In this document: in pieces, positions 23,006 to 41,505 of the stretch | Position numbering within the stretch: the stretch's first letter is position 1 | How the letters are laid out: the number at the start of each line of letters is the position of its first letter | Assembly: GCF_000243155.2 (NCBI RefSeq) | Contig: NC_018017.1 | Span: 3,844,001 to 3,908,000 of the forward strand | Source of the DNA: Desulfitobacterium dehalogenans ATCC 51507 | GTDB taxonomy: Bacteria; Bacillota; Desulfitobacteriia; Desulfitobacteriales; Desulfitobacteriaceae | Direction of reading: 5' to 3' | DNA: 64,000 bases | Made by a program: the position numbers and the translations under genes | The notes under the pieces: generated by a model | The model's database searches: none | The model's input: only the letters and a program-made list of their open reading frames with translations | Told to the model about the DNA's origin: nothing

Positions 23006-24397
23006 TTAATACGCATTCTCATTCGCAAACCCTTTAAATACCGTCACAACTAATATCTTTAAATCAAACATAAACGTCCAATTCTCAATATAGTAGATAT
23101 CACATTCAATCCTCTTGCGAATCGAAGTATCTCCCCGCCAGCCGTTAACCTGCGCCCAGCCGGTTATACCCGGCCGTACATGATGCTTAATCATGTATCG
23201 GGGGATCTTCTCCTTGAATTGCTCTACAAAAAAAGGGCGCTCCGGCCTAGGTCCCACCAGACTCATATCCCCTTTAAGGACGTTCCAAAGCTGTGGCAGT
23301 TCATCAAGACTGGTTTTGCGCAATACATTTCCCAGCCTTGTTTTGCGATTGTCTTCCTTTGTAGTCCATTCCTTGTCCGATTCCTCAATAGTCTGCACTC
23401 TCATCGTACGGAATTTGTACATCATAAAATTCTTCTTATTTAACCCAACCCTCTCCTGAGAGAAAATGACAGACCCGGGAGAATCGACCTTAATACCGAT
23501 GATTATAATTAGAAATACGGGTAAGCAAATGACTAATCCTACAAAGGATACGGCAATATCAAAAAATCTCTTAGCTAATGCCTTCAAAAAATTGTCCAAG
23601 GGAACATGTCGTATATTGATGAGAGGAATACCATCCACCTCATCTATCTGAGGTTTTGCCGGGATAAAGCGGGCATAATCCGGAACGATTTGGGTACGAA
23701 CACCACTTTTTTCACAGATTTTAATAATATTTCTAAAGATGACATAATCCTTTGTACTGATTGTTATAAAGATTTCATCGATCTTGCTTTCTATAATAAT
23801 ATTTTCCAGATCGCTGATTCCACCAATTACTGTGACTCCAGCCAGTTTTTTACCTACTGATGTAGTCTCATCAACAATTCCAATAATCTCATAGCCAAGA
23901 TATCGATTTTCTTTGAGGGCATTAGCAAGCCTTCTAGCCAATCTTCCCGTACCGACAATTAAAACGTGTTTTTTGTTATACCCTTTTTCACGGATATTAT
24001 TGAGTATTGCTCTAAGCGTCACCCGCTCTGCTACGGTAAAGATACTTGTAAGAATTACAAAATAGATAAGAACCTGGCGGGAATAGTGAATCTCTTTGAT
24101 AATATAGAGAAGTGTAAAGAGAATCATGGTGCTCAGGAAGTTAGCCTGTATGATCTTCCCTACTTCAAAGGACAAGCTCTTCCGACGCCTTGCTTCATAA
24201 AGGCCCAAAAAGTAATAAAGAAAGAAATGGAGCGGAACCAGAAGGGCCAGAGTAGGGATATAGCTTTCAAATTCCAGATGGTCTCCTTCATAATTCAAAA
24301 ACCTAAGCCAATAAGCTAGAACTAAGGCAATGACTACCATACTCAGATCAAGAATGACTTGAATCTTATTCAGTGTTTTCTGGTTTTCCCTGATCAT
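23006..24397 (-). CDS. Undecaprenyl-phosphate sugar-1-phosphate transferase (WcaJ/WbaP-type)
   Basis: The priming enzyme of the first glycan system, moving a sugar phosphate onto undecaprenyl phosphate. 463 residues: four to five N-terminal membrane helices (10-120), a CoA-binding-like domain (VLIVGTGRLARRLA near 145), one more helix near 280, and the catalytic domain with KVDSPGSVIFSQERVG, YKFRTMR, KTSLDELPQLWNVLKGDMSLVGPRPE in outline and GITGWAQVNG. The length and layout match the WcaJ type that uses UDP-glucose or UDP-galactose. GGAGAG precedes the ATG. It is the first gene of the long minus-strand operon. Confidence 0.93.
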   Translation of the reverse strand: MIRENQKTLNKIQVILDLSMVVIALVLAYWLRFLNYEGDHLEFESYIPTLALLVPLHFFLYYFLGLYEARRRKSLSFEVGKIIQANFLSTMILFTLLYIIKEIHYSRQVLIYFVILTSIFTVAERVTLRAILNNIREKGYNKKHVLIVGTGRLARRLANALKENRYLGYEIIGIVDETTSVGKKLAGVTVIGGISDLENIIIESKIDEIFITISTKDYVIFRNIIKICEKSGVRTQIVPDYARFIPAKPQIDEVDGIPLINIRHVPLDNFLKALAKRFFDIAVSFVGLVICLPVFLIIIIGIKVDSPGSVIFSQERVGLNKKNFMMYKFRTMRVQTIEESDKEWTTKEDNRKTRLGNVLRKTSLDELPQLWNVLKGDMSLVGPRPERPFFVEQFKEKIPRYMIKHHVRPGITGWAQVNGWRGDTSIRKRIECDIYYIENWTFMFDLKILVVTVFKGFANENAY

Positions 24398-24931
24398 TTA
24401 CTTCTCTCCGATAATTGTCTTTAATACCTCTTCATTTAGCAACACTTCTTTCCTATTCGACAATTACATAAAAAGTCCTTTTCTTTTTCGTTTGTATTAC
24501 CATCTCAAGAGACTCAAAAATCTGGAACTCTCTGAAAGCTGTGGGTTATCCGTTTGCTGAATTCTTCTGCTGTCGGAATAAACGAAAACTATGGAAGCCA
24601 TCAAAAATAAACGATCAACTTTAAAATGTATTTTTATTCATATATATTGAATTTTCTATGTAGCAAATATTAGGTAGAGTAAATGTGTCGATTTTTGAAG
24701 GATTTAACTTTTTTACGTAGAACATACACTGTATCATTATTTTGCAAGAGCCAAGAACCATTGCCTAAATAAACTTAAGCGCAAGGAGGGGAATTACGAG
24801 TATACTTAGAAAGACTTTTATGATGAGGCGAACTTATGACAAAAAATCGAAGTGCTTAATTCTTAATACCCATATCATGCCAAATCAACGATATGGATAA
24901 ATATCACTCACCCAATTCAAGGAGGATTTAT
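24398..24931. other. Divergent intergenic region between glycan operon and CWB2 gene
   Basis: A 534-base AT-rich stretch that must hold the promoters for both directions. I see no reading frame of interest, no repeat family member and no known riboswitch pattern; I looked specifically for a cyclic-di-GMP (GEMM) core. AAGGAGGA lies five bases before the ATG at 24932. A small inverted pair, CATATCAT and ATATGGAT (24871-24898), sits just upstream. Confidence 0.5.
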
Positions 24932-26644
24932 ATGAAGAAAAAATGTTCAATGTCTTTACTCTGTTTCTTGCTGGTTTTTTCACTTCTATCTATGAGTATT
25001 CCTGTATCAGCAGATACTCCATCTACGTCAATAAGTCTGGATAAAAGTACGATAGTGCTTACCGTTGGCCAAACCGATACCATAACTGCGACTGTCCTTC
25101 CCTCCGGTACCACGAATCAAAACTTAACTTGGATATCTTCTAATCCGAATGTAGTCAAGGTCTTTAATGGGCTTCTAATGGCTCTCAATGAAGGGACAGC
25201 TTATATCAACGTTATGAATCCTTCCGGAAATAGTAGCTACGCTTCATGTTATGTTATTGTCAAAAAACCTGATTCAACCATGGAAATCAATAAATCATCG
25301 GCTGTGCTTAGTGTCGGTTCTACAGAGACCTTAACCGTCACTGTTTCACCCAGTCAAGCCGTCCATTGGACATCCTCAAATCCCGAGATTGTGCAAGTGT
25401 TCAATGGGGTATTGATGGCTCAAAAACTCGGCACAGCAGTGATTACAGCGACAGCTGCCGATGGTTCGCGCAGCGTGACGTGCACTGTGACGATCAATGA
25501 TGCCCCGACCTCGATCACTTTAAATAAAAGCACGGCTACTTTAGGTATTGGCAAGTCTACAACGTTAACCGCTAACATTTCACCAGCCCTCCCCACCAAT
25601 GCCTATTTAATGTGGCAGTCCTCTAATCCCGGTATCGTATCCGTATCAGGAGGAGTAATAACTGGAGTGAGTCTGGGAACTGCCGTCATTACGGCTATTG
25701 CTTCCGATGGTTCAAGCAGTGCCACCTGTAAAGTTACTGTGACCGCCAGCGGTGTCAACCCCATCAGACTGGGCGGAGCCAACAGGTATGAAACTTCGGT
25801 TCAAATCGCCAAACAAGGGTGGCCAAACGGCTCAGCTTATCTAGTTTTAGCAACGGGAAACAATTATCCTGATGCCTTGAGCGCTGCCCCATTAGCTCAG
25901 AAGTATAATGCACCTATTTTGCTTACAGATAAAACACTTCCCCAGGTGACCTTAAATGAAATTACCCGTTTGAAACCCACCCAAATCTTTATCTGCGGCG
26001 GTACCGGTGCGATATCTAAAACTATCGAAAATCAACTCAATGGTATGGGAATCCTCACGGAAAGACTGGAAGGCAAAGACCGCTATGAGACTTCTGTCGC
26101 GATCGCTAAGAAATTAGGCTCTGGGTCAGGAGAATTAGTCCTTGTTAACGGCTATGAGTGGTCCGATGCCTTATCTGTCTCTCCCATTGCCGCCAAAAAA
26201 GGCATCCCTATCTTATTGACGGATAAAAATGCTTTCCCCGACTCTGTCAAATCATTTGTTAACTCAAATAATTTTTATACAACCTATGTCTTAGGTGGAA
26301 CGGACCTCATCAGCAATCAAGTGAAAAACCAACTTCCCGGTTCAGAGCGAATCGACGGCACTAACAAATATGAAAGAAATATCAATATCCTCAAGAAGTT
26401 TGAAGATAGCCTGGATCTGGAAAAAATCTGCATAGCCACAGGAGCTGATTTTCCTGATGCTCTCTCCGGCTCAGCGCTTGCGGCGAACCTTTCCTCCGCT
26501 ATCGTACTGGTGGATAATAATAGTTTAAAATCTGTAACCACTCAATACGTAACTCAATCCCTTCAACAAACCAATGATGTTTACGTGTTTGGACTCCAAG
26601 GGGTTGTCAGTGACACTGTGGTAAATAAGCTATTTGGCAAATAA
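24932..26644 (+). CDS. Secreted protein with three Big_2 Ig-like domains and three CWB2 repeats
   Basis: 570 residues. A signal peptide (about 1-28, ending PVSADT) is followed by three Ig-like group 2 domains (about 29-115, 117-200, 203-277). The first and third carry I-S/T-L-x-K-S-T openings and the second a diverged one; WISSNP or WQSSNP strands recur. Three CWB2 repeats start at RLGGANRYETS near residue 278. Repeats 1 and 2 have PILLTDK; the third has the diverged SSAIVLVDN. CWB2 would anchor it non-covalently to wall polymer with the Ig stalk exposed. ATG at 24932 is set by AAGGAGGA; an upstream in-frame ATG would add 13 residues and spoil the signal peptide. Confidence 0.93.
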   Translation: MKKKCSMSLLCFLLVFSLLSMSIPVSADTPSTSISLDKSTIVLTVGQTDTITATVLPSGTTNQNLTWISSNPNVVKVFNGLLMALNEGTAYINVMNPSGNSSYASCYVIVKKPDSTMEINKSSAVLSVGSTETLTVTVSPSQAVHWTSSNPEIVQVFNGVLMAQKLGTAVITATAADGSRSVTCTVTINDAPTSITLNKSTATLGIGKSTTLTANISPALPTNAYLMWQSSNPGIVSVSGGVITGVSLGTAVITAIASDGSSSATCKVTVTASGVNPIRLGGANRYETSVQIAKQGWPNGSAYLVLATGNNYPDALSAAPLAQKYNAPILLTDKTLPQVTLNEITRLKPTQIFICGGTGAISKTIENQLNGMGILTERLEGKDRYETSVAIAKKLGSGSGELVLVNGYEWSDALSVSPIAAKKGIPILLTDKNAFPDSVKSFVNSNNFYTTYVLGGTDLISNQVKNQLPGSERIDGTNKYERNINILKKFEDSLDLEKICIATGADFPDALSGSALAANLSSAIVLVDNNSLKSVTTQYVTQSLQQTNDVYVFGLQGVVSDTVVNKLFGK

Positions 26645-26690
26645 TTTATACAATTTAATAGCGCTTTGGAATTGTCAAATTCACATAATC

Positions 26691-26737
26691 AGCCCCCTTG
26701 ATAGATGGAAAAGCATCTATCAAGGGGGCTGTTATTA
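26691..26737. terminator. Bidirectional terminator between convergent genes
   Basis: A 17-base perfect stem (arms start AGCCCCCTTG and end CAAGGGGGCT) with a GAAAA loop, followed by TTATTAT on the plus strand. It serves the plus-strand CWB2 gene and possibly the minus-strand TolC-like gene. Confidence 0.92.
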
Positions 26738-26743
26738 TATGTC

Positions 26744-27940
26744 CTACTTTTTCAGACTATTTTCAAAGCTGGCTGCTGCGGTCATGTACGAGTTGATATT
26801 TTGCAGCAATGTATACTGGTCATTAAGCAGCTTGTTTTGGGGTTCAATTATTTCGAGGGGGCTGGCAGTCCCTACCTCAATTTTCTTCTGGAGGATATCC
26901 ATCTCGATTTGATCCGCTTCAACTGTCAGTTGAGCCGCTTGAATCGTATTCTCCAGAGACTTCAAATTATTATACGCCGTTCGCAAAGAGACTTCCTTGG
27001 TAACAGGCAGAGCTTCCAGAGTCGCTTTCTTGTCTTCTATACTGATTTGAAACTGATCGGCTGCCGTCATATTGGAGTAGCGGAAGGCGATCTTATACTC
27101 GATCTCGGTCAATTCTATATCTTGTTCATATCGTTTTTTGTCATAGTCGTTTTCAATCGTTTTCGCAATTCGGTCTTTAAGTTTGGAATCGTCGAATTTA
27201 CTGTAGGGAGACAGATCTGAGGTCAGCACAACGTCGCGGTCGACGTTAATTCCCAGATCCCGTTTCAAAGCTATCATAGAACTGTTTATGCTATTTTGAA
27301 CCGCTTTCAGACCTGCTTCCAGCGAGCTTCTCTGAGCGCTCAAAGTCGATAGTTGAGATTGGATGCCCATCCCTAGATCCACTTGCAGCTTGACTTGCCC
27401 GATAAGGGTATCCACATTATCTAATTGGGCTTTTAAAGTTTTCACTTGCTGTTGAGAGGCTAAAGTATTCTGATACTGATTCGTGATCTGTACTTTAAGA
27501 TCCTTCAATTGTTCTTCCTGGTCATGTTTGGCATTTTCTAAGGTCCAAAGAGCTTTTTTATGATTTAACCATTTCCTTTTGGCTGAATCCTCATCCACTT
27601 CATCATAATTGGCGTTATGCAGCCCCAGTGCTTGTTCGTATTGTCTTTCGTAGATAGCAATTTTGTCCTTCGTCAACTTCCAGGTGCTGTTCCCTGTCTC
27701 AACCAATTTTAGGGCGTCTTCCAGAGAAAGCTTTAGGGTGGAAGTATCCTCAGCTTTGGGGGGGACTGTGTTTGTTTCCCCGCTTTTATCGGGCTCTTGG
27801 GTTGTCTGAGCCGGTTCACCGGCCTCAGCCAGGAGGATCTTATTGGATGAAGTATTGGTACTGGCAATTACGTTGCTGGCCGCAAAGACCATTGAAGCCG
27901 TTAAAATTGCGGCTATTGTTTTTTTATTAATTTTTTTCAA
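26744..27940 (-). CDS. TolC-like (outer membrane efflux family) secreted coiled-coil protein
   Basis: 398 residues. A signal peptide (1-27) is followed by a low-complexity T/E/P-rich linker to about residue 70 and then LKLSLEDALKLVETGN, the usual opening of an OEP domain. Long heptad-rich helices follow (QEEQLKDLKVQITNQYQN, VKTLKAQLDNVDTLIGQVK). Near the end, EVGTASPLEIIEPQNKL is the OEP-type second hairpin motif. It uses a TTG start after GGGGGTG. Such proteins are outer-membrane channels in diderms, so their place in a CWB2-type organism is odd. It is probably cotranscribed with the next gene, a relative. Confidence 0.78.
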   Translation of the reverse strand: MKKINKKTIAAILTASMVFAASNVIASTNTSSNKILLAEAGEPAQTTQEPDKSGETNTVPPKAEDTSTLKLSLEDALKLVETGNSTWKLTKDKIAIYERQYEQALGLHNANYDEVDEDSAKRKWLNHKKALWTLENAKHDQEEQLKDLKVQITNQYQNTLASQQQVKTLKAQLDNVDTLIGQVKLQVDLGMGIQSQLSTLSAQRSSLEAGLKAVQNSINSSMIALKRDLGINVDRDVVLTSDLSPYSKFDDSKLKDRIAKTIENDYDKKRYEQDIELTEIEYKIAFRYSNMTAADQFQISIEDKKATLEALPVTKEVSLRTAYNNLKSLENTIQAAQLTVEADQIEMDILQKKIEVGTASPLEIIEPQNKLLNDQYTLLQNINSYMTAAASFENSLKK

Positions 27941-27979
27941 TTTGGCACCCCCGTGTTTAATTCCTTGTTGTCCTAATGT

Positions 27980-29086
27980 TTAAGGTTGAAATCCCGCACC
28001 GCAGGCTGACTCCATCATGGCTTGCATAAGCCAGGCGTCCAGTTCAGCGTTCTTTAAATTGATATCAGCCTGAGCCTTTGCTACTTTTATCTTATTTAAT
28101 TCAATAAAGGTGATCTCCGAATTCTCATAGCGGATTTGGGCAGCTTGATAGTTCTGCTCGGCTTGATCGGCAAGATAGCTCATTGCTTCCATCTTCTTCA
28201 TAGAGCTTTCCAGTCCGGCGTAAAGGTCGGTGACATTTTGCTGAACACTGATCCGGGCAAGCTCAAGATCGTTTCCAGCTTTGGCTATCTCATATTCTTG
28301 CTGTTGCTTATAGAACTCATAATCCGTCGGGATTTCAGCTATACCGAGGCGGTATTGCTCTTCTAAAATATCCAGGGTGCTTTGGGCATTAAGGACTTCG
28401 GCTCGATTCGTCCGGGCTTGCTGAACATAGTCATCAAGCGCTCTCACCTGTGCCGATGGCTTGATGTTATTGTCCTGCAATACAGCATACTGTTTGGCAA
28501 TATCTTCTTTCATCATATTGTTCAAAGCCATCTTGGCAGAATCTTTGCTGTTTTGAGCGTTCAGGTAGTTATACCGTGTTTGTTCGTAAGCAATCTCCGC
28601 TAACCTTAGCTGAGCATCCGTAAGCATACTCTGTTCCTTTTGAAGACGAGCTTTTTTGTAATCTTCGTAAAGGGAATTCATCAGCTCACTTTGGGTGTTC
28701 AAGGCATAATCGGCCTTAAGAAGCTCGATATACCCGCTATAGGCACCCATGCGTATGGCATTGGTTACGACCACTTGAGTGTTGTTAACCTGCTCAAGGG
28801 CACTTTTCAATTGCAAGGGGTAGAGGATAATCGCTTTCACCAGGGAGTAGGAATTGCTGTACGGTAAAAGATACTTGGTTTGATTCATCTGTCCTTTGAC
28901 GCTGACATAATTCTTTTGGATGACTTCGGCTTGCTGGTTAACGGTTTTAAGGGGCTGAGAATTTTCAACGGCTTTTATAGCCGCCTTTTCAATATTCAAG
29001 CTCTCTTCCGCAGCAGCAAAGGCGACTTGAGTCGTGCTGGCCAGAACCAATGTGACCAGGGCAATCGATGCTATGACCTTCTTCAA
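27980..29086 (-). CDS. Second TolC-like secreted coiled-coil protein
   Basis: 368 residues with a clear signal peptide (MKKVIASIALVTLVLAS..., cut near residue 25). The pattern is the same as the neighbour's: LNIEKAAIKAVENSQ opening, alternating long helices (QLRLAEIAYEQTRYNYLNAQ) and a repeat half ending YENSEITFIELNKIKVAKAQ. The TTG start has AAGGAGG upstream. Sequence identity with the 26.7 kb gene is low by eye, so any duplication is old. It lies 23 bases after the FN3-CWB2 gene, so one transcript is likely. Membrane-crossing beta strands expected of true TolC are not obvious. Confidence 0.75.
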   Translation of the reverse strand: MKKVIASIALVTLVLASTTQVAFAAAEESLNIEKAAIKAVENSQPLKTVNQQAEVIQKNYVSVKGQMNQTKYLLPYSNSYSLVKAIILYPLQLKSALEQVNNTQVVVTNAIRMGAYSGYIELLKADYALNTQSELMNSLYEDYKKARLQKEQSMLTDAQLRLAEIAYEQTRYNYLNAQNSKDSAKMALNNMMKEDIAKQYAVLQDNNIKPSAQVRALDDYVQQARTNRAEVLNAQSTLDILEEQYRLGIAEIPTDYEFYKQQQEYEIAKAGNDLELARISVQQNVTDLYAGLESSMKKMEAMSYLADQAEQNYQAAQIRYENSEITFIELNKIKVAKAQADINLKNAELDAWLMQAMMESACGAGFQP

Positions 29087-29109
29087 GTAATTTCCTCCTT
29101 ATCAAGGTG

Positions 29110-31485
29110 CTATTTCGTCGTTCCAGACACCGGGCCGGAGCGATCCCCGGTGGTGGTACTGTTACATGGTTGAATCTTATAATAATAGGTCGTTTGAGTT
29201 GTTAAATGCGTATCTGTAAAATGGGGGGAATCTGTTGTGCCCACCAAATTGTAAGCTCCTGTACTTGAGGCGGCTCGGTAAATATTGTAATAACTGGCAT
29301 TGGCAACGCTGTCCCAGGTCAGGAAGATCTGCTCAGAGCTCAAGGGCGTCGCCTTGATATTCCCAGGCACCCCCAGGGTGCTGAAGCCGTACATCGTCGA
29401 AGCATAGGCTGCCTCTGAGTAATAACCTACTCCTACTGTATTCCCAGATTGAATTTTATAAAAATAAGCAGTACCCGAAGTAAGGTTGGTATCGACATGG
29501 AAAGGACTTCCCACAGTGGCCACAAGGTCATAGGCCCCAGTCAAGGAGGTGGAACGGTAAACATGATAAAACGTGGCGTTGTCCACAGCATCCCATTTAA
29601 CATGGATCTGACTCGGGCTCAAACCCGTCGCAGACACATTGGTTGCCGCAGTTAAGACATTATGGTCAAGCCAGGTCTGAGCCTGAACACTATTGGAGTA
29701 AAGGCTTGATGAAGTATTATTTACCGCCTGAATCTTATAATAATAAGTGATCCCTGAGGCCAAATTCAAGTCGGTATAGAAGGGTGTACTCACTGAAACT
29801 AACTTTGTATAGCTTCCAGTCGGCGATGTGGCCCTGTAGACATTATAATGGAGCGCACTGCTTACGACATCCCAGGTAAGGTAAACCTGATTCGTATCCC
29901 TGATTTCCGCTTTGACATTGGTGGGCTGCATCAAGACAGCGCTAGTTGTTAGAGTGGTGGCCGGGACAGCATCCGAATAGGGTCCGGTTTCCCCATTATA
30001 GACTGCCTGTACTTTATAGTAATAAGTGGTCCCTGTGGAAAGATAGGTGTCAAAGTAGTAAGGCGTGGTCGTGGCAGTAATCTTAGTATAGGTTCCGGAA
30101 AAGGAAGATGACCTGTAGACATGGTAAGCAACAGCATCATTTACCTTATTCCAAGTTAGGTAGATTTGGCTTGCGCTCTGGGGTGTCGCCGATAGATTGG
30201 TAATCAGTTGATTGCTTGTTGTGACCGTACCAATCTCCGAGCTGATCGTATCCAAAAGCTTCTCGGATACAGCCTCCGCCCCACCGAAAGCTACGACATT
30301 TTGGATCGCAGAGGAGTAATCCTGGAAAAAAGCAGCGGCATCTTTAGTTAAAGAGCTACCCACTAAGATAACCGGAGAACCCTGTAAAGAGGCTAATGCT
30401 GAGCCGGTTAAGGCGTCCGGATAGGCTGCCCCTGTCGTTAAATAACAAGTGTGCAAATCCAACCTATCCCTGAAGAATTCAATGATATTGATATTCATGT
30501 CGTACCAGTTCGTCCCTGTCAAGCGTTGCGGAGAGGGCAGCTGCCTATATACATTATTACTGATGCTCCCGGAGTCACCTAAAACGTAAGTGTTTTCGCA
30601 ATGTCTATCTAAAAGCTTCTTTAGATCACTCCCCAGGCTATCTTTAGGTGTCAAGAGAATAGGCATGCCTTCTTTTGCCGCGATAGGTGCTATAGATAAA
30701 ACATCCTGAAAATTCAAACCGGAAGCAATAACCGCTTCATCGAAATCACCTATGGCCTCAGCCACTTTGAGCGAGGTCTCATAGCGGTCCACTCCTGCCA
30801 ACCGGGTCACCTTAATTCCTAAGTCCCTGATAGCGTCAGCTGCTTTTTCAGAGACTACAGCAGTGCCGCCAATAATAATGGCATCCTTTACATCAAGAGC
30901 CAATAATTGTTTCTTTGTTTCTACATGTAAACTATTCTTAGGTGTCAACAGAATGGGGGCCTTATATTTGGCCGCTAGAGGGGAAGCACAGATAGCATCG
31001 GGAAAATTCTCGCCGCCGGCAATGATAGCATAAGAAGAAGTGTTCCAGCCTGCTTCAGCGATTTCAGCAGCGGTCGTATAGCGATCACTTCCTGAAAGAC
31101 GATTATTTTCTACCGGAGCGATACGTCCTGACTCTGAATGCGTTACCGCCCAAGCTTCAGCAGAGTAGTCACTGGATCCGCTGTTTGTAATGGCCTGAAC
31201 CTTATAGTAGTAACGGGTATTGGCTTTGAGTCCCGCACTGATATAGCTGGGGGTATCGCTGGCTCCTATGTAAGTATAGGTTCCCGAAGAGGAATTGGCC
31301 CGATAGATGTAATACTGGGCTGCCGAGCTGACTGGCTCCCACGATAAGTTGATTTGACTCGAACTGATTACCACTGCTTTCAGCGCTGTAGGTACAGCAG
31401 GATTACTCGCCGCCAGCGCTTGCCCGGGGAAAATGAGCAGGGCAAGAACCAAGCACAGAAGTCCTATTTTTTTAATCCTTCTCAC
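29110..31485 (-). CDS. Secreted protein with five FN3 domains and three CWB2 repeats
   Basis: About 791 residues. Signal peptide (1-26), one fibronectin III domain (30-118), three CWB2 repeats (127-417, opening RLSGSDRYTTA) and four more FN3 domains beginning near 425, 517, 612 and 703. The FN3 units share INLSW/IYLTW, YYIYRA/YHVYRS and TYYYKIQA strands and are close enough to suggest recent internal duplication. CWB2 repeats 1 and 2 have PILLTPK; repeat 3 has SPVILVGSS. GTG at 31485 has GAGGAG six bases upstream. Likely a wall-bound stalk or adhesin, or a carbohydrate-contacting surface protein. Confidence 0.92.
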   Translation of the reverse strand: MRRIKKIGLLCLVLALLIFPGQALAASNPAVPTALKAVVISSSQINLSWEPVSSAAQYYIYRANSSSGTYTYIGASDTPSYISAGLKANTRYYYKVQAITNSGSSDYSAEAWAVTHSESGRIAPVENNRLSGSDRYTTAAEIAEAGWNTSSYAIIAGGENFPDAICASPLAAKYKAPILLTPKNSLHVETKKQLLALDVKDAIIIGGTAVVSEKAADAIRDLGIKVTRLAGVDRYETSLKVAEAIGDFDEAVIASGLNFQDVLSIAPIAAKEGMPILLTPKDSLGSDLKKLLDRHCENTYVLGDSGSISNNVYRQLPSPQRLTGTNWYDMNINIIEFFRDRLDLHTCYLTTGAAYPDALTGSALASLQGSPVILVGSSLTKDAAAFFQDYSSAIQNVVAFGGAEAVSEKLLDTISSEIGTVTTSNQLITNLSATPQSASQIYLTWNKVNDAVAYHVYRSSSFSGTYTKITATTTPYYFDTYLSTGTTYYYKVQAVYNGETGPYSDAVPATTLTTSAVLMQPTNVKAEIRDTNQVYLTWDVVSSALHYNVYRATSPTGSYTKLVSVSTPFYTDLNLASGITYYYKIQAVNNTSSSLYSNSVQAQTWLDHNVLTAATNVSATGLSPSQIHVKWDAVDNATFYHVYRSTSLTGAYDLVATVGSPFHVDTNLTSGTAYFYKIQSGNTVGVGYYSEAAYASTMYGFSTLGVPGNIKATPLSSEQIFLTWDSVANASYYNIYRAASSTGAYNLVGTTDSPHFTDTHLTTQTTYYYKIQPCNSTTTGDRSGPVSGTTK

Positions 31486-31546
31486 AATGATCTCCTCTCT
31501 TCTCATCCTGTCTTTTCACACTGGGCGAAGTTCGCTAGTTAAAAAC

Positions 31547-34500
31547 TTATAATGTGAAATCTTTCTCCTTAAGCATAGGGTAGTATGAGCGAGTCGCGCT
31601 AAAGTCCTGGGTTTCATTGCTTTTCAGAAATAATGACGTCAAACGGGTTAAATCTCTGATAGGTGCAAAATCTTTAATTTTGTTAAGGCTTATATCCAAA
31701 TAAGTTAATTTAGTCAGATTTCTTACGGTATCTACTTGCTCCAGGTCATTGTTGCGCAGATTCAAGTACTCCAAATCAGGGAGTCTCTGCAGGGTAGATA
31801 AATTAGACCCTTTTAGAAAATTATTTCTTAGATCCAGAGTGCGCAAGTTCGAGCATGCCTCCAGTCCAGTAAGGTCTCTAATCCCATAGCCATCAAGGTT
31901 CAAGCTGGTAAGCTCCAGTACTTCGCTCAGATAGGCCGGCTGTGGAGAAGATTGCTTGCCTAATGTGTATTTTACGGCCCACTCCAGACTTCCGTCTTTA
32001 AATTCAATCGCCTTATCCTCAGAAACCTTCAAGCTTAAAGTCGTCGTCAGATCAGTTCCCTCTACTGTCCCCTGAAATGTGTATGTACCGGCTTTATTGA
32101 GGATCGTTGCTGTAGGTGTGCTGCTCCATTGTACTGGCAACTTTTTGATACTATGATCACTCATGCTCACCGTTACTGTCTCCGGAAGGGAATAATCGCT
32201 ACCGCGAATGACCTCGGCACCGAAGGTATCTACTTTAACCGGACCTGCCTCAACAGTGAGGACCAACTCAACGGTACCATCATAACCCTTTACGGAACCA
32301 GTATAATAATAAGTTCCTGTCTTGGCTGTGGATACATTCGTTAAGTTCCATGTGACCGGGACCTGTGCCCAATTTCCCTGGCTGGTTTTAGCTTCAATCG
32401 TTTTAGGCAAGGTATAGCTTTGATTTTCCTTGACGGCAACATCGATACTCTTTACTTCGCTAACAGTCGGGGTTAGGTTAGCTAAGCGCTGGACAGTGCT
32501 TGAAGCAATGACCCCCTCCCCTCCCAATACTGTAATTTCATCGATCACCTGCGTCGAAAAATATTTGTCCGCAGCCGCACTTATTTGATTGCCATTCAAC
32601 AGTATAACGGGATTATTGTTCATCTGTGCATAGGCCGCCGCAGCCAGAGCATCCGGGTAAGCCTGTCCGGTGGCGATAAAGACCCGATCCTTGCTCAGGC
32701 TCTCGCTGAATTTCTGCAGCAGAGCAATATTTCTAGTATAGGGATCAGCTCCTGTGATGTTCTCAGCAGCGGCAAATTGGCTCCGGATGACTTGTGGAAT
32801 TTCCTTTGCGGTGCCAAGAATGATGACTCTGCTAAGCTTAGCCCGGGCAAAGTAACTCTTTTGATTTTTGGTCATATCGTCTGAAGGAACCGGAATAATC
32901 GGCATCCCTTCGGCAGCGGCAAGGGGTGCCGCCGACAAAGCATCGGCAAAGCTCTCCCCTGGAACAATAATTATTCCCTTAGACATACCTACCGATCGTG
33001 CTACCGCCATAGCCGTATCATACCTGTCCTTACCGGATAAACGGGTAGAAGTAATCCCATTAGCAGATAGCTGACTTTCTACACTGTTGGGAACCGCACT
33101 TAATCCGCCCACGATGTAAGCTTTCTTCGGGCTTAAGCGTTTGATCTCCCTCAAGGTCTCCGGGCTAAATCCTTTGGGCCCGGCCAGAAGGATCGGTGCC
33201 CCATTTTTACCGGCCAAGGTAGCCGCACTTAAAGCATCGGGAAAGTTTTGGCCGGTCGTTATAACCACATTATCAGCGCCATCGGGCCAGCCGCTCTGGC
33301 TGATAGCCACCGCAGTCTGATAACGGTCGCTGCCGGATAATCTGGACACCGTTGTGGAAGCATAGGCCTGTTGGTCTAAAGAAAATATGAGCAATACCGC
33401 ACCAAGCAAAATGCCGGTTATTTTTCTGGATAGAATCTTCATGTTAATCACCTTTTTCACATCCTCCCAGCTCATGGCTCCTTCACTTGGCTTTGCCTTG
33501 AGCATATGATTAATACTTACCCCTAAGCCCAGCAGGCACCAAAAGACCGGGGCGACGGAAACCACACTGTCATTAAAAAATGCTGCACCAAGATAGCCCA
33601 CAATAGCGATAAAAACGGCAACTCCCGCCTGGGAGAGGAAATCCCGAAACGGATTAGAGACATATAAGCGAAAACTCTGATATAGGTAGTATACTACAAT
33701 AAAGAGAAAGGCCAAAAGGGAAATAATGCCAGTATTGATGGCAATCTGTAAGTATTGATTATGGGGTTTGTCTACAATTTGCCACATATCCCCATGATAG
33801 GCATACATTTTCCCCAAAATATCGTGTTGAGGGAAAACTATGGCAAATGTATCCGGCCCATAGCCAAGAAATAGTGTATTTTTTAATAAAGGCAGGGAGC
33901 GAGACCAAATATAACCCCGGGAAGAACCGATGCGTTCATAGCCGGTAAAGCCCCAGGATTCAATCGGCTCCAGGCTGATTTCCCTGCCATTTGGACCGAG
34001 GAAAGTGAGCTTCTCCGGTTCTAAGCCGAAAAAGAGTTGAATATCCCCCTTTTGAATTTTCAAAGCCCCTTTGCCATTCAACTGCCCAACAGTCAGAAGA
34101 TAATCTGTATACTTCGGGTCACTGAACATCATTGTACCCTGATCCCGGTCATAAGTGTAAAGGATAGGCTTGTTTTCACTATCCATAAACACAAGCCGGT
34201 CCTCATCATATGTAAAATTAAGTGTTTCGGAGTCCGTCACTATCGTTCCCTGTTTCCCATTAATGTTCACAGCCTTTAAAGGGATACTATCCTCCTGGGA
34301 CTCCGCGTTCCCGGCCAGACCGATCAAAGCCCTGGTATCGGTATATAGGGACATGGCCCTGGTGCTTAAATACCCTCCTGACAGCTGATTCAATCCTATG
34401 GCCAAAGCAATCATCACCAGCAAGCCGGCTCCGAAATATTTCCAGTGCTTCCTGATCATCTTGTTGATAGCTATTAAAAAGACCAGCAAGGCCAGTCCAC

Positions 34501-35305
34501 CGCCCACAATCCCTGAACGGGCATTGCACCCCAACCAAACAATACCCATTAAAACAGTCATAAGACTTAAGCCAGCCTTAGCGCGCTTATCTTTGACTAA
34601 GACCAACAAGGCGAAGCACAGAGGAAAGAGCATCGCTATATAGCTGCCCACATAATTATAATGATATAAGGTAGCGTAAATAACATTCTTGTCGAATTTG
34701 AAAGTCAACTGCTCCCCAATCTGTTTATGCTCTCCAGATAGAAACAAGCTCTTCGCAATATCAGACTTTAAAACATCATACCCTATGTATTGAAACAATC
34801 CGATCAAGCCGATCACTAAAGCCCCCGCCAGCAAGCCGCCGAGAATCAGCTTGACCTGCTTCTCATCGGATACCAACGCCGTGGTTACCAGAAAGATCAG
34901 CAGATAGGCCGCTAAGACATACATTCCTTCATAACGATCGGGAAAGCCACTCAAGGCCACACTGCGGAAATCCGAAACCACAGCGGAAGCTGTGATGAGA
35001 AGAAAATACAGTACGGCTGCTGTGTAATAGGGTCTAAGGGATTTTTTCACTAAACGGGGGGTATTCTGAAAAACCCGTACGATCACCAGAAAAGCCCCTG
35101 AGAGCGCTGCAATAATTACTCCGATTCCCTTATAGTAAGAAAAAAAATCATAATTCTCCGCACTACCGTTCCAATAGGCAAGGCTGACTCCCGACAGAGG
35201 GATAACTTTCAAGTGAACGATTAAAGGAACTGCAGCCATCACGAAAATAAGGGGCAGCAGATAATACCATTGCACACTTGGTTTAGTATTTTTTTGAGTT
35301 TTCAC
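31547..35305 (-). CDS. O-antigen ligase/polymerase-like domain fused to CWB2, Ig-like and LRR domains
   Basis: A single 1252-residue reading frame. Residues 1-600 are a polytopic membrane protein with about 12 helices, a large outer loop (about 325-480) and the O-antigen ligase family pattern (NARSGIVGGGLALL, FLGYGPDTFA, KPHNQYLQIAINTG). After a soluble tail, residue 622 is an ATG that starts a normal signal peptide (MKILSRKITGILLGAVLLIF). Then come three CWB2 repeats (652-940), two Big_4-like Ig domains (950-1100) and about five leucine-rich repeats (1130-1252, LRTLDLRNNFLKG, LEYLNLRNNDLEQ). GTG start with GGAGG upstream. It may be a genuine fusion or two genes joined by loss of a stop codon. 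Confidence 0.88.
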   Translation of the reverse strand: MKTQKNTKPSVQWYYLLPLIFVMAAVPLIVHLKVIPLSGVSLAYWNGSAENYDFFSYYKGIGVIIAALSGAFLVIVRVFQNTPRLVKKSLRPYYTAAVLYFLLITASAVVSDFRSVALSGFPDRYEGMYVLAAYLLIFLVTTALVSDEKQVKLILGGLLAGALVIGLIGLFQYIGYDVLKSDIAKSLFLSGEHKQIGEQLTFKFDKNVIYATLYHYNYVGSYIAMLFPLCFALLVLVKDKRAKAGLSLMTVLMGIVWLGCNARSGIVGGGLALLVFLIAINKMIRKHWKYFGAGLLVMIALAIGLNQLSGGYLSTRAMSLYTDTRALIGLAGNAESQEDSIPLKAVNINGKQGTIVTDSETLNFTYDEDRLVFMDSENKPILYTYDRDQGTMMFSDPKYTDYLLTVGQLNGKGALKIQKGDIQLFFGLEPEKLTFLGPNGREISLEPIESWGFTGYERIGSSRGYIWSRSLPLLKNTLFLGYGPDTFAIVFPQHDILGKMYAYHGDMWQIVDKPHNQYLQIAINTGIISLLAFLFIVVYYLYQSFRLYVSNPFRDFLSQAGVAVFIAIVGYLGAAFFNDSVVSVAPVFWCLLGLGVSINHMLKAKPSEGAMSWEDVKKVINMKILSRKITGILLGAVLLIFSLDQQAYASTTVSRLSGSDRYQTAVAISQSGWPDGADNVVITTGQNFPDALSAATLAGKNGAPILLAGPKGFSPETLREIKRLSPKKAYIVGGLSAVPNSVESQLSANGITSTRLSGKDRYDTAMAVARSVGMSKGIIIVPGESFADALSAAPLAAAEGMPIIPVPSDDMTKNQKSYFARAKLSRVIILGTAKEIPQVIRSQFAAAENITGADPYTRNIALLQKFSESLSKDRVFIATGQAYPDALAAAAYAQMNNNPVILLNGNQISAAADKYFSTQVIDEITVLGGEGVIASSTVQRLANLTPTVSEVKSIDVAVKENQSYTLPKTIEAKTSQGNWAQVPVTWNLTNVSTAKTGTYYYTGSVKGYDGTVELVLTVEAGPVKVDTFGAEVIRGSDYSLPETVTVSMSDHSIKKLPVQWSSTPTATILNKAGTYTFQGTVEGTDLTTTLSLKVSEDKAIEFKDGSLEWAVKYTLGKQSSPQPAYLSEVLELTSLNLDGYGIRDLTGLEACSNLRTLDLRNNFLKGSNLSTLQRLPDLEYLNLRNNDLEQVDTVRNLTKLTYLDISLNKIKDFAPIRDLTRLTSLFLKSNETQDFSATRSYYPMLKEKDFTL
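33440..33455 (-). promoter_or_regulatory. Internal ribosome site and start inside the fusion gene
   Basis: AAGGTG lies six bases before the ATG at 33442, which opens a typical signal peptide. It could produce a free 631-residue CWB2-Ig-LRR protein from the same message. Confidence 0.6.
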
Positions 35306-35497
35306 AGCTTTCCTCCCCTGATGACAGATACCATCATTCTCTACTCAATTCATTATAGCAGAAAAACAAATCCAGCGGCAGAAAACATGAAATATGTAAT
35401 GGAAATAATGCTTAATGGCGATTTAAAAAACAAAATTACTAACCGGTTGGCAAGAACATGTATCAGATTTTGTCATCTGTCAAACAGGGCAAATACA

Positions 35498-35545
35498 CAT
35501 TAAAAGAGGAACCTTGAACGCATTACTGCATTCAAGGTTCCCTTT
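35498..35545 (-). terminator. Terminator of the S-layer gene
   Basis: Arms GGAACCTTGAA (35508-35518) and TTCAAGGTTCC (35531-35541), with a TCTTTTAAT tail on the minus strand. The remainder of the 280-base gap up to the fusion gene shows no gene. Confidence 0.88.
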
Positions 35546-35585
35546 TCCATAGATTAAAATACTAGAGTTTTGCTAAGGTTAATGC

Positions 35586-38500
35586 TTACCTAACTACGAT
35601 CTTAATGGTCTTGACAAGACCGCCGACTACAGCACTAACTTTAAAGGATCCTGTGCCACTGGCACTATCGAAGCTGCCATCATTTCTTGGGTTAGTAACT
35701 ACACCATCGTCATTCGCTGTCACAAGAACTTGTGAAAGCTTCATGCCTTTCTTGCCGTATTGGTCTACAGCATAGAAATGGATCTTAGAGGTAGTTGCTT
35801 TGCCGTCGTTATCGTATTTTGCCAGTGTCTTGACAGGTGCAGTGCCAGTAGTTCCGAACAGAGTGGCTAAGGTAGTACCCTTAGAAGTATCAATAGTGAG
35901 GGTATCACCATCAAGTGTGACACCAGGTAATTCGGTAGGAGCTACAAAGACAATGTCTTTGGCAACTGGAGCTACCTTAGAGGATTTCACATCGGTTGAT
36001 ACGGATTTAATCGCACCATCTACACCCTTTACAGTAACAGAAAGGGTTGCACTTGCTTCTGTCATGGTATCAGGCAGTTTGGAACCAACGACCTTGACAC
36101 CTTTATAACCTACACCGCCGTTCTCACCTTTTATTACTGTGAAGTAAGGACTGTTTACAGTTGCACCAATTATCGGTGTTCCTTTCAGAACAACCTTAGC
36201 ACCCGATGCTGTTGTACCATAGATCTTCGGATTAGCTGCAAATGCTTCTACCCGAGCTGTATTAGCAGTGGTATCTATGACATTATTAGCTGCATAGATA
36301 GCATTCGGTACACTGTCGATAGTATAGCCCTTGATGTCTGAATCTGCTACCACTGTCATGGTTTGTGATTTGGTGTCAATGAGGAGATCTTCTTTAGAGC
36401 CATCCGCATTTACCTTCATATCTTTACCATACAGCGCAAAACGAACAGTGACGGTTCCAGGTTTTTTAGCTCTTAATACAATCTGATTTTCACCTGGCTT
36501 TGCAATATAGCTACCATCTGTGTAGTTACCGTTGGCATCAACAGTAGCATCCGGATTAGCTGTACTATTCTCAAGCTGCTTATCATCATTAACATTAACT
36601 ACCGTAACAATGTCTTTGTTTGCTATTTCGGCTTTAACATAGTAATTTTTAGCGACATTATCAGCATCAGCAGTTGTCATATCAATGTCTCTACCATATT
36701 GATCTTTCACTGCTAAACCGCCAGCATCGTAACCAAAGTCAATCTTTTGCACTGCTCCATTAGGAACATCAATTGAGCCATTGGTTGTCATTTGGGCTGA
36801 TTGCATCAGAGGTTTAAGCACAGTGGTATCCAGTGCCAAAGCGTCAGCTACAGCTGCTTTTTGGATGTTAATTGTGAGTGTGCTGTAGTGACCGGTTCTG
36901 CTCACGGTAGCCGTGATGACCTGAGGAATAGGATTCGAGGTTTTGTTTTCTTTTTTTACAGTTTTGATTACGGCAGTACCGTCAATCTGCTCATCCCAGT
37001 AGGCTGCATCTGTATTGAGTTGAACATAAGGTTTCAGATCAGCGAACTTGGTTACTTCTTTGCCGTTTTGATCATAAGCCACAAAGGGGATGGTTGCGGA
37101 CTCGTTAGAAGCTACCGCTTCGTTCGGAGCAAGCAAGGTAATCTTAGCGACTTCGGCTTGCTTTTTCAGGGTGAGGTTAAGCTGAGAGGTTTTGCCCGTC
37201 CAAGTCATGGCTGTGATAATCACAGGTGTGTCCACAGTAATCGTCTTATCGGTAGTTCTCAGTTCAATCATCGCTTTATTGGAATCCTTGGGATCTTGGA
37301 CGACTTTGACTGTTACATCGGGGTTGGAAGTAGTTATTTCATCTTTGTCTTGGCCGCTCAAAATCAAGCCTTCTTTAACAAGCTCAAAATTATTGGTGGC
37401 ATTGCCGCTGATATCCGTAGCAGTATAGTCTACATAGAATACATCAGTGAGGCTTGCTGCGGTCAATTCCTTTTCTGTTCCATCAGCGCTGACCAGCTTG
37501 TTGAGCGTGATATCGCTTAAGGTACCGATTTGGGAAGTAGCAGCCAGAGTAGCGGTGGTGGATACACCAGAAGTCATATCATTGGCTGTAATCACAATCC
37601 CACCTGCAAAACTGAGAAGGTTCAGATTATTAGATGCAGCCAGTTTGATTAAACCTTTACGGGCCTCAATCGTACCTACACCAGTTTTGAAGTCAACATT
37701 ATTGGCCAGTGCGGAGTTGGTGATATCCACTCCGTATTGATCCAGGATCTTATAGGTTGCATATCCGGTTTGTACCTGCTGGTTGTTCACCGTGCTTGTT
37801 ACCACACCCAGCTTAGTGGATGTAATCTCAATCTTAGCAACTTTTTGCTCGGTATAGGTAACTTCTTTGGAAGCGAGTTCCTTAGTGTCTTCTTTAACGC
37901 CGACAGTATAAGTTCCGGATACAAAGTTGGAAGACTTAGACAGAACAGCTTCTGTCTTAGCTTCATTCCAGGTAACGTTTACTGCCACCGCAGAAGATGA
38001 CTGTCCTTGTTTTACTTCAAAATTAATTTTTGCGGTGTCAGCGGGAGCCTTGCTGAATTTTACTTTTACAGCATTAGCTGCAGATGCCGTGATGCTCTCA
38101 ACTTTGAACTCTCCAGTGGAAGGAGGATTCTTCACAGCATCCATTACTGCATTGCTGACAGCTGCAGTTCCGCCCAGAGCAACCAAAACGCTGTCTTTCT
38201 CCAGGTTGGAAGCGATATCAGCTTTTACAGTTTTTCCATCAGTCAAAGCAATCGGGGAATCGGTTTGTGCAGCAAGCACAGAACCTACGAGGGCGTCAGC
38301 CAAACTGAGGCCGTTACCAACATAGACAGTACCGAAATCGAAATCGAGTTCAGCGATAACTTGTTTGTTGGTGTCATAACGGTCAGCACCTGCTAAGCGT
38401 TTTGCACCGGCAATGTCTTTAACGCGAGTGGTTCCGCCAACGATGTAGTCAGCTTTAACACCAGCGTCTACAGTACCGCTTTGGTTAGCAACAACGATAG

Positions 38501-39035
38501 CAAAGTTGTTAGCAGCTGCGTAGGAAGCAACGGACATAGCGTCAGCAACGCCGTCATAACCTACAACGAAGGTTCCTTCAGGAGCAGTCAACTTAGCATT
38601 GATAGCTTTAGCAGTAGCGATGCGGTCAGCACCTTTAACTTCGTCAACTGCGAAGCCGGCAGCTTTCAGTTCGTCAACGACAGCTTTGCTAGCAGCAGCA
38701 CCAACTACAACAACTTTCTTAACACCGAGAGCTTTCATGGATTTGACGACATCGTCATTCATGTCAGCTTTGTCGGTCAGGTAGATCGGAGCGTCTTCTT
38801 GAGCTGCAAGGGGAGCTGCAGCAAGAGCGTCAACGAGGTTATTGGGGTTACCAGCAGCAACAACTGCGGTATCTGCAGAGGCATACGCTTTTTCTGCAAT
38901 TTTGATCGAGGTTTGGTATCTGTCGGAACCAGCAAGACGAACAAAATCGTCAGCAGCGAATACGCTGGCTGGAGCCATTGACAGTACCATACCGGCGATA
39001 GCTAAGGAGGCTAAAGCCTTTTTTGTCTTCTTCAT
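35586..39035 (-). CDS. Probable main S-layer protein with N-terminal CWB2 repeats
   Basis: About 1149 residues. Signal peptide 1-27 (KKALASLAIAGMVLSMAPASVFA); three CWB2 repeats 29-330 (FVRLAGSDRYQTS, AKRLAGADRYDTN); then about 800 residues of Thr/Val/Ala-rich, lysine-rich beta domains with Ig-like strands (VESITASAANAVKVKFSKAP). It has almost no cysteine. Size, composition, position, a strong terminator and an unusual structured leader fit the major S-layer subunit. All three CWB2 repeats deviate from the P-I-L-L-T motif (PIYLT, AIVVA, PIALT), unlike the minor CWB2 proteins here. The ATG at 39035 gives a normal signal peptide; the longer frame adds 22 unlikely residues. Confidence 0.85.
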   Translation of the reverse strand: MKKTKKALASLAIAGMVLSMAPASVFAADDFVRLAGSDRYQTSIKIAEKAYASADTAVVAAGNPNNLVDALAAAPLAAQEDAPIYLTDKADMNDDVVKSMKALGVKKVVVVGAAASKAVVDELKAAGFAVDEVKGADRIATAKAINAKLTAPEGTFVVGYDGVADAMSVASYAAANNFAIVVANQSGTVDAGVKADYIVGGTTRVKDIAGAKRLAGADRYDTNKQVIAELDFDFGTVYVGNGLSLADALVGSVLAAQTDSPIALTDGKTVKADIASNLEKDSVLVALGGTAAVSNAVMDAVKNPPSTGEFKVESITASAANAVKVKFSKAPADTAKINFEVKQGQSSSAVAVNVTWNEAKTEAVLSKSSNFVSGTYTVGVKEDTKELASKEVTYTEQKVAKIEITSTKLGVVTSTVNNQQVQTGYATYKILDQYGVDITNSALANNVDFKTGVGTIEARKGLIKLAASNNLNLLSFAGGIVITANDMTSGVSTTATLAATSQIGTLSDITLNKLVSADGTEKELTAASLTDVFYVDYTATDISGNATNNFELVKEGLILSGQDKDEITTSNPDVTVKVVQDPKDSNKAMIELRTTDKTITVDTPVIITAMTWTGKTSQLNLTLKKQAEVAKITLLAPNEAVASNESATIPFVAYDQNGKEVTKFADLKPYVQLNTDAAYWDEQIDGTAVIKTVKKENKTSNPIPQVITATVSRTGHYSTLTINIQKAAVADALALDTTVLKPLMQSAQMTTNGSIDVPNGAVQKIDFGYDAGGLAVKDQYGRDIDMTTADADNVAKNYYVKAEIANKDIVTVVNVNDDKQLENSTANPDATVDANGNYTDGSYIAKPGENQIVLRAKKPGTVTVRFALYGKDMKVNADGSKEDLLIDTKSQTMTVVADSDIKGYTIDSVPNAIYAANNVIDTTANTARVEAFAANPKIYGTTASGAKVVLKGTPIIGATVNSPYFTVIKGENGGVGYKGVKVVGSKLPDTMTEASATLSVTVKGVDGAIKSVSTDVKSSKVAPVAKDIVFVAPTELPGVTLDGDTLTIDTSKGTTLATLFGTTGTAPVKTLAKYDNDGKATTSKIHFYAVDQYGKKGMKLSQVLVTANDDGVVTNPRNDGSFDSASGTGSFKVSAVVGGLVKTIKIVVR

Positions 39036-39191
39036 GTAGTGAATTTCTCCTCTCATTCTTGTGGTAACGTTTTTCTTGTCTTCCGGAGTCGCGGCGCTCA
39101 TGTACGTTTTTTAATCTAAGAAGCTATGTGCCAGACTCCTCACCTTTGCTGATCAGTGGTCGTCACTCACCCCCTTAAATAAGCCGCAAAT

Positions 39192-39287
39192 CTTTAGACA
39201 TTGCGCAATATCTAAAGGCATCCCACCCCTTAATGGGGGCGTCCCCCCTGAGAAGCTTACGCCTCGCGGGTGGCTTACCCTTTAGAC
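39192..39287 (-). ncRNA. Structured leader with two exclusive folds upstream of the S-layer gene
   Basis: On the minus strand, in RNA order: TCTAAAGGG (39287-39279), CCACCC (39273-39268), a GAGGC-GUAA-GCUUC hairpin (39265-39252), a GGGGG/CCCCC hairpin (39248-39235), GGGTGG (39228-39223) and TGCCTTTAGA (39220-39211). The first and last pair, as do the second and fifth, giving a three-way junction. CTTTAGA at the 3' end can instead pair with TCTAAAG at 39198-39192 to form a separate hairpin. This is a switch-like layout about 160-250 bases before the start codon. I do not recognise it as a known class. No plain terminator follows. The rest of the 470-base gap holds no gene. Confidence 0.5.
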
Positions 39288-39505
39288 AAACCTAATGAAG
39301 AAACCTTTCACAGTTTCTACACTCGTAATAAACTATTCGATGCCGGATTTAATATTCCTGCATCTCTCCAAAAAAATTTCTTAGAAAATCTTGGAGAAGT
39401 TCATTTTACGAGCGCATGTTTAAATTCTAACTAAAAACGAAGTTTTTTTCCATACCCTTTGTAAATATTTTTATTAACTTTTTCTTAATTCCCATTCTGA
39501 TTAAG

Positions 39506-41131
39506 CTAATATCCCCTGTGAATGAGAATTCCCCGGTATATCCCCAGAGCAGATTTTTTCTGAAATTCCGGGTCTGTGATAAGTTTCTCTTCTACCGGAT
39601 TGGAGATAAAGCCCAGTTCAACAAGGATGGCCGGCATGGTGGTATTCTTGATCACGTAAAAATTAGCGGTTTTAACCTTGCGATCCTGAAGCCCAACCTG
39701 CTTGATCAATTCTTGCTGAACAGCAGAAGCAAGCTTTCTTCCCTCCTCGGCTTTGGGATTATCTGCAGAGATATAGGTGGTCACCCCACCGGCTTCGGGG
39801 TTGGAAAAGGCATCGTTATGTATAGAGACGTAGAGATCGGCCGGAATCTGATTCGCTATTTTTACTCTGGCTTGTAAATCTTTTAATTCCGTATAATCGG
39901 CGCCGGCAGGCGAGGTATCTCCCGTCCTGGTCATCACTACTTTAGCCCCTGCTTGCCGTAAAAGATCCGCTAAGTTAAGCCCCACGGGCAGAGTGGAGTT
40001 CTTTTCATAAGAGCCGCTGGCGCCTACCGCTCCCACATCCTTGCCGCCATGGCCCGGATCGACCACGATGGTGAGACCCGCCAGGAGATAGGGGGGTTGT
40101 ATGGTCCCTTCCACGATTCCCTTGACCCGTTCTGAAAGCACTGTATCCCCGCCGATGATGGTCACCAAGAGCTGAGCGGCTGCAGCATTGCCCAGCGCCG
40201 AGTAAGTCACTGCCGGCAGATCTTCCTTGTAAGACATAAATAAGTAGGCATTTTGTTTAACCGCTAAAGCCCCTGTCACCAGAGCATCGGGGAAATTTTC
40301 CCCTGTCACCAAAAAACTTCTCTGATTCTCGGAAGCAAAGTCCTGCCCAAACTCCTCCTGGGTAAACCAGAACACTTTGGCCGCTGTATCATAGCGATTG
40401 TCCCCTGAGATACGGGTCATTCCCGTCAGCCCTGCCACCACTTCCGAAGAAACCGCTTTTTCTCCCCCGATTACTGTGGTCCTGGTCACGGATTCTGCTT
40501 CCTGATTCAGCCGATAAGCTCCCAATTCCTCCAGCTTCAGCCGGGTGGCCTCGGGGAGGCCTTTGGCCTTAGTCAGCAGCAAGGGCGTCTCTGTCATCCC
40601 TGCGTAAGGACCGATAGCGAGAGCATCGGGAAAGTTCTCCCCGCTGGTGAGAATCACTTGACCGTTCCCGCCTAAGCGCTCCGCTACCATCACGGCGGTC
40701 TCATAACGATCTGCACCCCCGATTCTCTCCCAGGTCAATCCCTCTTTTTCCAAGGCCTTTGTTACGGGATTTCCCATGACTCCCGTCCCTCCCAAAAGGA
40801 TCACATGCTGAGCGTTGAGCCGCTTGATTTCTGCCAGAACTCCTTCATCCAGACCTCGGGACGGTGTCAGGAGTATGGGGGCGTCATAGCGCTTGGAAAG
40901 AGGAACCGCGACTAAGGAATCGGGAAAATCATCGTAGCGGGCTAAGAGGACGGTATTCGCCTCATTCCAACCTTCTTGGGAAATCCGTATGGCGGTCTCG
41001 ATACGTGTTGTTCCATAGATGCGTGTTACATCTGCCGTTAAAGGAGCCGCATCAACACTGGCCTGCCCCATCAGCCAGAGGCTGAAGGCGGCACCCAGTA
41101 CCAGGCTCCATTTTTTTCGTCGTGGCCACAC
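39506..41131 (-). CDS. N-acetylmuramoyl-L-alanine amidase with three CWB2 repeats
   Basis: 541 residues. Signal peptide 1-28, three CWB2 repeats about 36-330, Amidase_3 domain 349-541. Zinc ligands are visible: H in VVDPGHGG, E in SYEKNSTL and H in SIHNDAF; the catalytic E is in ILVELGFISN. It cleaves the amide bond between MurNAc and the stem peptide, acting in the wall. The order CWB2-amidase is that of B. subtilis LytC. GTG start with AAGGAGGG seven bases upstream. It lies upstream of the S-layer gene on the same strand, with a 470-base gap that suggests separate transcription. Confidence 0.95.
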   Translation of the reverse strand: MWPRRKKWSLVLGAAFSLWLMGQASVDAAPLTADVTRIYGTTRIETAIRISQEGWNEANTVLLARYDDFPDSLVAVPLSKRYDAPILLTPSRGLDEGVLAEIKRLNAQHVILLGGTGVMGNPVTKALEKEGLTWERIGGADRYETAVMVAERLGGNGQVILTSGENFPDALAIGPYAGMTETPLLLTKAKGLPEATRLKLEELGAYRLNQEAESVTRTTVIGGEKAVSSEVVAGLTGMTRISGDNRYDTAAKVFWFTQEEFGQDFASENQRSFLVTGENFPDALVTGALAVKQNAYLFMSYKEDLPAVTYSALGNAAAAQLLVTIIGGDTVLSERVKGIVEGTIQPPYLLAGLTIVVDPGHGGKDVGAVGASGSYEKNSTLPVGLNLADLLRQAGAKVVMTRTGDTSPAGADYTELKDLQARVKIANQIPADLYVSIHNDAFSNPEAGGVTTYISADNPKAEEGRKLASAVQQELIKQVGLQDRKVKTANFYVIKNTTMPAILVELGFISNPVEEKLITDPEFQKKSALGIYRGILIHRGY

Positions 41132-41505
41132 AGAAAAACCCTCCTTATTTGACTAAGTATCCTTGGGACTTTCGACAGGTTTCACTTTAATCCTCTTGGA
41201 AATCTCGACCAATAGACTCAGTCTACCATAAAGTAATAGACAGAAAAAATTAAGATTTTCTTCCTCTTTTAGATGTTAAGAATTTATTAACTTTGTGATT
41301 TCCCTGTTATTTCTACAAGGTATTTGTCCTTTTATAACGAATTACTTGCAAGGACTAAAGTGCCTGTCAGATTTTGTGTTCTGCTGTAGTCTATGTTAAG
41401 AACATCACTCATTAATTGAGTACGCTGATGAAGTGATGGCAACTGGGGTTCGCAAGTTTATATGATGCTAAGTTTACGAGATGAGAAGTATGGAAGGAGA
41501 GAAAG
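41132..41505. other. Divergent intergenic region between amidase and GH18 genes
   Basis: 374 AT-rich bases that should contain promoters for both genes. No gene, no repeat-family member and no recognisable riboswitch were found. Confidence 0.5.

Follow-up and report, generated by a model that had tools for sequence, protein, structure and literature searches.

A glycan ligase gene and a wall-bound surface-protein gene in one open reading frame of Desulfitobacterium dehalogenans

Does an unbroken reading frame that holds the domain sets of two unrelated proteins encode a new kind of enzyme, or have two ordinary genes run together in it? The question is raised by positions 31547..35305 (minus strand) of a 64,000-nucleotide stretch of the genome of Desulfitobacterium dehalogenans ATCC 51507 (hereafter the window, to which coordinates refer unless another locus is named). 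The joined ORF is uninterrupted over 1252 codons, from a GTG at 35305 with the ribosome-binding site GGGGAGG (-11.4 kcal/mol) to a stop at 31547, and its Pfam matches comprise one Wzy_C (3.6e-8), three CWB2 (7.8e-53), two Big_4 (2.5e-35) and an LRR (2e-10) domain. Residues 1-605 constitute a ligase and residues 622-1252 a surface protein. On a hydropathy scan, the joined protein holds 12 hydrophobic segments up to residue 598; one more, the 13th, spans about 624-642 and forms the h-region of a signal peptide whose first residue is M622 (33442). The preliminary description of this DNA was therefore right on three points, namely that one unbroken frame links a ligase-like to a wall-anchored protein, that the first half has 12 helices, and that the second opens with a complete signal peptide. 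Separately, a chance origin of the open frame was ruled out, since it is too long and since conserved families are matched over the full extent of both halves.

A WaaL-fold ligase and a CWB2 surface protein

The ligase part (33491..35305, minus strand) is a 12-helix Wzy_C protein of the WaaL fold. The Wzy_C match scores 33.8 bits against a cut-off of 31.7, and 53.3 bits with its neighbours in frame. While a sequence-profile search of the ligase against solved chains returned no match, a fold search did: in an AlphaFold model of residues 1-660, built with 23 relatives and confident up to residue 605 (mean pLDDT 83, lower beyond), residues 8-605 matched the WaaL structure 7TPG with a Z of 24.4 and an rmsd of 4.7 over 375 residues, the runner-up, FtsW, falling far below it (Z 10.5). 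An invariant GSSRGYIWSR ... DKPH motif (residues 460-515; 33761..33928, minus strand) supplies Arg and His residues such as a WaaL-type active site would require; R463, R469 and H515, compared with WaaL by loop rather than residue by residue, are invariant in 24 sequences and lie within the large outer loop. In WaaL, the outer loop holds the second Arg and the acceptor-activating His (PMC10920833). Thus, the ligase resembles the O-antigen ligase WaaL (Wzy_C, CAZy GT121, PDB 7TPG) in its 12-helix fold, its Wzy_C match and an outer loop with invariant Arg and His, but differs from it in two respects. Firstly, the model shows an extra beta-rich insert (residues 341-447; 33965..34285, minus strand) within the large extracellular loop that connects helix 9 to helix 10; this insert is apparently missing from the WaaL structure, and its resemblance to fatty-acid-binding-like barrels is weak (Z 3-5.5) and probably without meaning. 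Secondly, the gene sits in a locus of wall-bound proteins, which makes WaaL's acceptor, lipid A, unlikely for this enzyme.

The second half begins with the signal peptide MKILSRKITGILLGAVLLIFSLDQQAYA (33359..33442, minus strand), laid out from M622 as MKILSRK-ITGILLGAVLLIFSL-DQQAYA, with a predicted cut after residue 649 and ST following; relatives also keep signal peptides. The mature surface protein (31547..33358, minus strand) has three CWB2 domains in tandem behind the signal peptide (E 7.8e-53), followed by two Big_4 domains and a C-terminal LRR that resembles those of internalins by sequence. CWB2 repeats carry an Ile-Leu-Leu motif and bind wall polymer in C. difficile (PMC4973711). By eye, ILL can be read in repeats 1 and 3 (PILL and VILL); repeat 2 reads PIIPV. 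The CWB2 domains should hold the surface protein to a wall polymer, as in C. difficile. A signal peptide with three tandem CWB2 domains is the arrangement of the Cwp/SlpA-type proteins of Clostridioides difficile, and the surface protein has sequence matches to the Cwp6, Cwp8 and SlpA structures; in contrast to that type, its C-terminal part consists of Big_4 and internalin-like LRR domains.

The neighbourhood bears on what the ligase may act upon. Immediately upstream lies a gene for a CWB2 protein of 1171 aa (35586..39101, minus strand), probably an S-layer protein and a candidate target of the ligase, and further along the locus is a WcaJ-type undecaprenyl-phosphate sugar transferase (23006..24397, minus strand), likely its glycan-starting enzyme. 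A CWB2 protein gene likewise adjoins the ligase gene in comparison genomes G003 and G009 and lies near it in G005, while in Acidaminobacter an SLH protein is encoded beside or near it. WsaB and WsfB are predicted S-layer O-oligosaccharyltransferases, and are Wzy_C proteins (PMC2943079). The window holds the same combination of a Wzy_C enzyme, a sugar-phosphate transferase and a surface-protein gene: as with WsaB of Geobacillus and WsfB of Paenibacillus alvei, a Wzy_C ligase of a Gram-positive bacterium is encoded in a surface-glycan locus together with a polyprenyl-phosphate sugar transferase and, in several lineages, with an S-layer or surface-protein gene next door. WsfB differs in having a TPR domain, which Pfam does not find in the present ligase. 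As its locus has the setting of WsaB and WsfB, our analysis suggests S-layer or other surface proteins as the substrates that the ligase glycosylates, most likely by moving an undecaprenyl-diphosphate-linked glycan onto them.

Two further features of the region may be recorded. Six CWB2 proteins are encoded within less than 19 kb (24893-43572; genes at 24893, 29110, 31547, 35586, 39506 and 41506), two of which carry catalytic domains (amidase and GH18). Among them lie two adjacent genes for TolC-like proteins (OEP, PF02321) with signal peptides (26744-27940 and 27980-29086), an odd pair in a host expected to be without an outer membrane; gene pairs of this type also occur beside CWB2 genes in G003 and G002.

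Relatives and the missing stop

In every relative checked, the two halves are separate genes. The decisive comparison is offered by G003, which, like G002, belongs to the same genus (the species itself is sampled by one genome). Its syntenic locus has the ligase and the surface protein in the same order with the same neighbours (sugar transferase, two TolC-like proteins, FN3-CWB2, LRR-CWB2, ligase, long CWB2 and CWB2 amidase), and its two halves, 65% (ligase) and 67% (surface protein) identical to those of the window, are divided by a TAA. The G003 ligase ends as NHML-NKRTAKLKS-TAA, directly followed by GGAGG, after which the surface protein starts at a TTG or ATG. The distance between the last conserved ligase codon and the GGAGG is 31 bases for G003 as against 33 for the window; therefore, the two layouts agree but for the lost stop.

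Wider searches agree with this comparison. No match crossed the junction, among the matches listed, when the whole joined protein was searched in 60 related genomes, and a scan of genome contigs with the same query returned no relative. Across 82 class-level genomes, near-full-length ligase relatives occur in frames of 609-676 aa as against 1265 for the window's own, with no other full-length relative in a joined frame. When 84,980 bacterial and archaeal genomes were screened for a pair of conserved ligase motifs, 54 loci emerged, none with a CWB2 motif in the ligase frame, as counted by a simple pattern rather than a profile search and with one locus (L061) left unassigned by the script. Ligase relatives terminate within about 30 residues of the last helix, and close ones in the order end roughly where that of G003 does. 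The surface-protein gene, for its part, is complete and standalone in about 20 genomes of several genera with varied neighbours; in most of them an AGGAGG-like site closely precedes the start, and the signal peptide has an Ala-X-Ala-like sequence at its end. In G002 its neighbour is an FN3-CWB2 gene, and a search of that genome yielded no ligase match. Given G002 and the standalone copies, the ligase and the surface protein are not obligate partners. The two genes lie side by side in one branch of the genus, and only in the window do they share a frame.

The ligase gene shows other irregularities elsewhere: it is apparently broken by a TAA in one locus (L048, contig C81 of G067) and split over two frames in a Desulfosporosinus MAG (L087). 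Moreover, in seven loci of gut Clostridia a related ligase is truly fused to a sugar-phosphate transferase, giving proteins of 1178-1327 aa with Bac_transf, CoA_binding_3 and Wzy_C domains (L071:2446-5982, L073:4552-8121, L076:4594-8142, L091:3516-7484, L092:4378-8361, L094:346-4248 and L095:3444-7361; checked with Pfam in five of the seven, L073, L076, L091, L094 and L095). In L072 the same two proteins are encoded by separate genes with a 26-base overlap.

In the window, the junction (residues 606-621; 33443..33490, minus strand) leads from the variable C-terminal tail of the ligase into the next gene, and the stop found here in relatives is absent. From the conserved NHML to M622 the tail measures 57 bases, and the absence of one stop codon within it suffices for the join. 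Computed mutations of this tail show how finely the frame is balanced: the ligase frame would end no later than the start of the next gene after any single-base deletion, after 217 of the 228 one-base insertions and after 9 of the 171 substitutions. As nearly any one-base indel in the tail has this effect, the join turns on very small differences. The same property lends some weight to the proposal that the stop is missing through an error of sequencing or assembly and that the organism has two normal genes, since nearly any one-base indel there joins or separates the frames and the relatives have separate genes. We nonetheless regard an error as rather unlikely: the genome is a single contig of 4,321,753 bases with an estimated completeness of 100%, the neighbouring genes in the window look intact, and direct signs of an error are absent. 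As explanations, a genuine mutation and a sequencing slip are on a par for simplicity; the finished genome and intact neighbours favour the former.

The signals of the downstream gene are retained at the junction. Its ribosome-binding site, GGGAGG (33463..33468, minus strand), lies two bases off the position of the GGAGG that follows the TAA in G003. The probable internal start is a GTG at residue 619 (33449..33451, minus strand), the counterpart of the G003 TTG; the alternative, three codons further on and in frame, is the ATG at residue 622 (33440..33442, minus strand). The preliminary description had assigned the ribosome site to the ATG at 33442, which does have a usable one (-10.4 kcal/mol, equalled by 3.4% of ATG triplets in the window), but the strongest serves the GTG at 33451 instead (-14.0 kcal/mol, equalled by 0.4% of those triplets), exceeding even that of the start of the joined frame.

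Together, these observations make it very probable that the joined frame consists of two ordinary neighbouring genes, whose separating stop has here been lost to a minor mutation or, with lower probability, to a mistake in assembly. As the genes are separate in every relative checked, the join is most likely an accident of one genome (or an assembly slip) and no new kind of enzyme. With one genome of the species covered, a fusion maintained throughout the species keeps a small probability. The preliminary description had proposed either a true fusion or two overlapping products of one message. The first half of this alternative is not supported, given the separate genes of relatives, the G003 stop and the lack of a ligase match in G002; the second fits a downstream start codon, ribosome site and signal peptide that are all intact. 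It had also advised looking for the same frame in relatives and had named separate genes divided by a stop as evidence against a fusion; this is what was found, as no relative is joined and a TAA stands between the genes in G003.

Fate of the two products

The cell likely still makes two working proteins, and there are two predicted routes to them. In the first, ribosomes would start internally at the GTG at 33451 or the ATG at 33442 by means of the retained ribosome site. In the second, the signal peptide would form the 13th helix of a read-through chain, in its normal direction, and cleavage by signal peptidase behind AYA (residue 649) would free the mature surface protein here too. With 12 helices, an even number, the ligase is predicted to have a cytoplasmic C-terminus (an orientation drawn from the segment count and the positive-inside rule), from where the signal peptide would enter the membrane in the usual way. 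The AlphaFold model is uninformative on the junction helix, as pLDDT falls below 50 at residues 622-627 and 633-660, where relatives were not aligned. No proteomic data on the junction were found in the literature, and the paper that names Desde loci is silent on these genes.

A precedent for an internally cut membrane polyprotein is presented by FbcH, the cytochrome b/c1 precursor of Bradyrhizobium. By analogy, the joined chain might be the principal product, matured by signal peptidase, with internal initiation playing a minor part. The even number of helices, the correctly oriented signal peptide and the AYA cut site are compatible with such a scheme, but a strong internal ribosome site is kept, which renders it unnecessary, and relatives offer no precedent; we accord it a somewhat lower probability still than a sequencing error. 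Far less probable than either is a genuine functional fusion, in which an uncut chain would tether the CWB2-LRR part to the ligase, to serve it as an acceptor, as a positioning device or as a wall anchor. The frame is open, the topology permits it and the ligase-sugar transferase fusions of gut Clostridia show that related enzymes can be fused; against this, the fusion is absent from all relatives examined, the linker is the variable ligase tail, and the intact ribosome site, start codon and signal peptide would be needless in a fixed fusion. Equally, we see very little chance that the joined chain is made and stays at least partly uncut, tethering a wall-binding LRR protein to a surface-modifying ligase.

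To return to two neighbouring genes that have lost their stop, both predicted routes would end in the same two products. The lost stop would thus cost the cell little, and could for that reason persist.

Both genes, then, are of known kinds, and their join in one genome is due to a missing stop. The case cautions that, where two unrelated sets of domains share a long frame, they may belong to two neighbouring genes whose stop has been lost. It also presents a neat natural instance of a stop loss that is possibly near-harmless, because even a fused chain should yield the second product by way of its signal peptide. Were the fused chain shown to persist, it would represent a new way to place a surface protein beside a glycan ligase.
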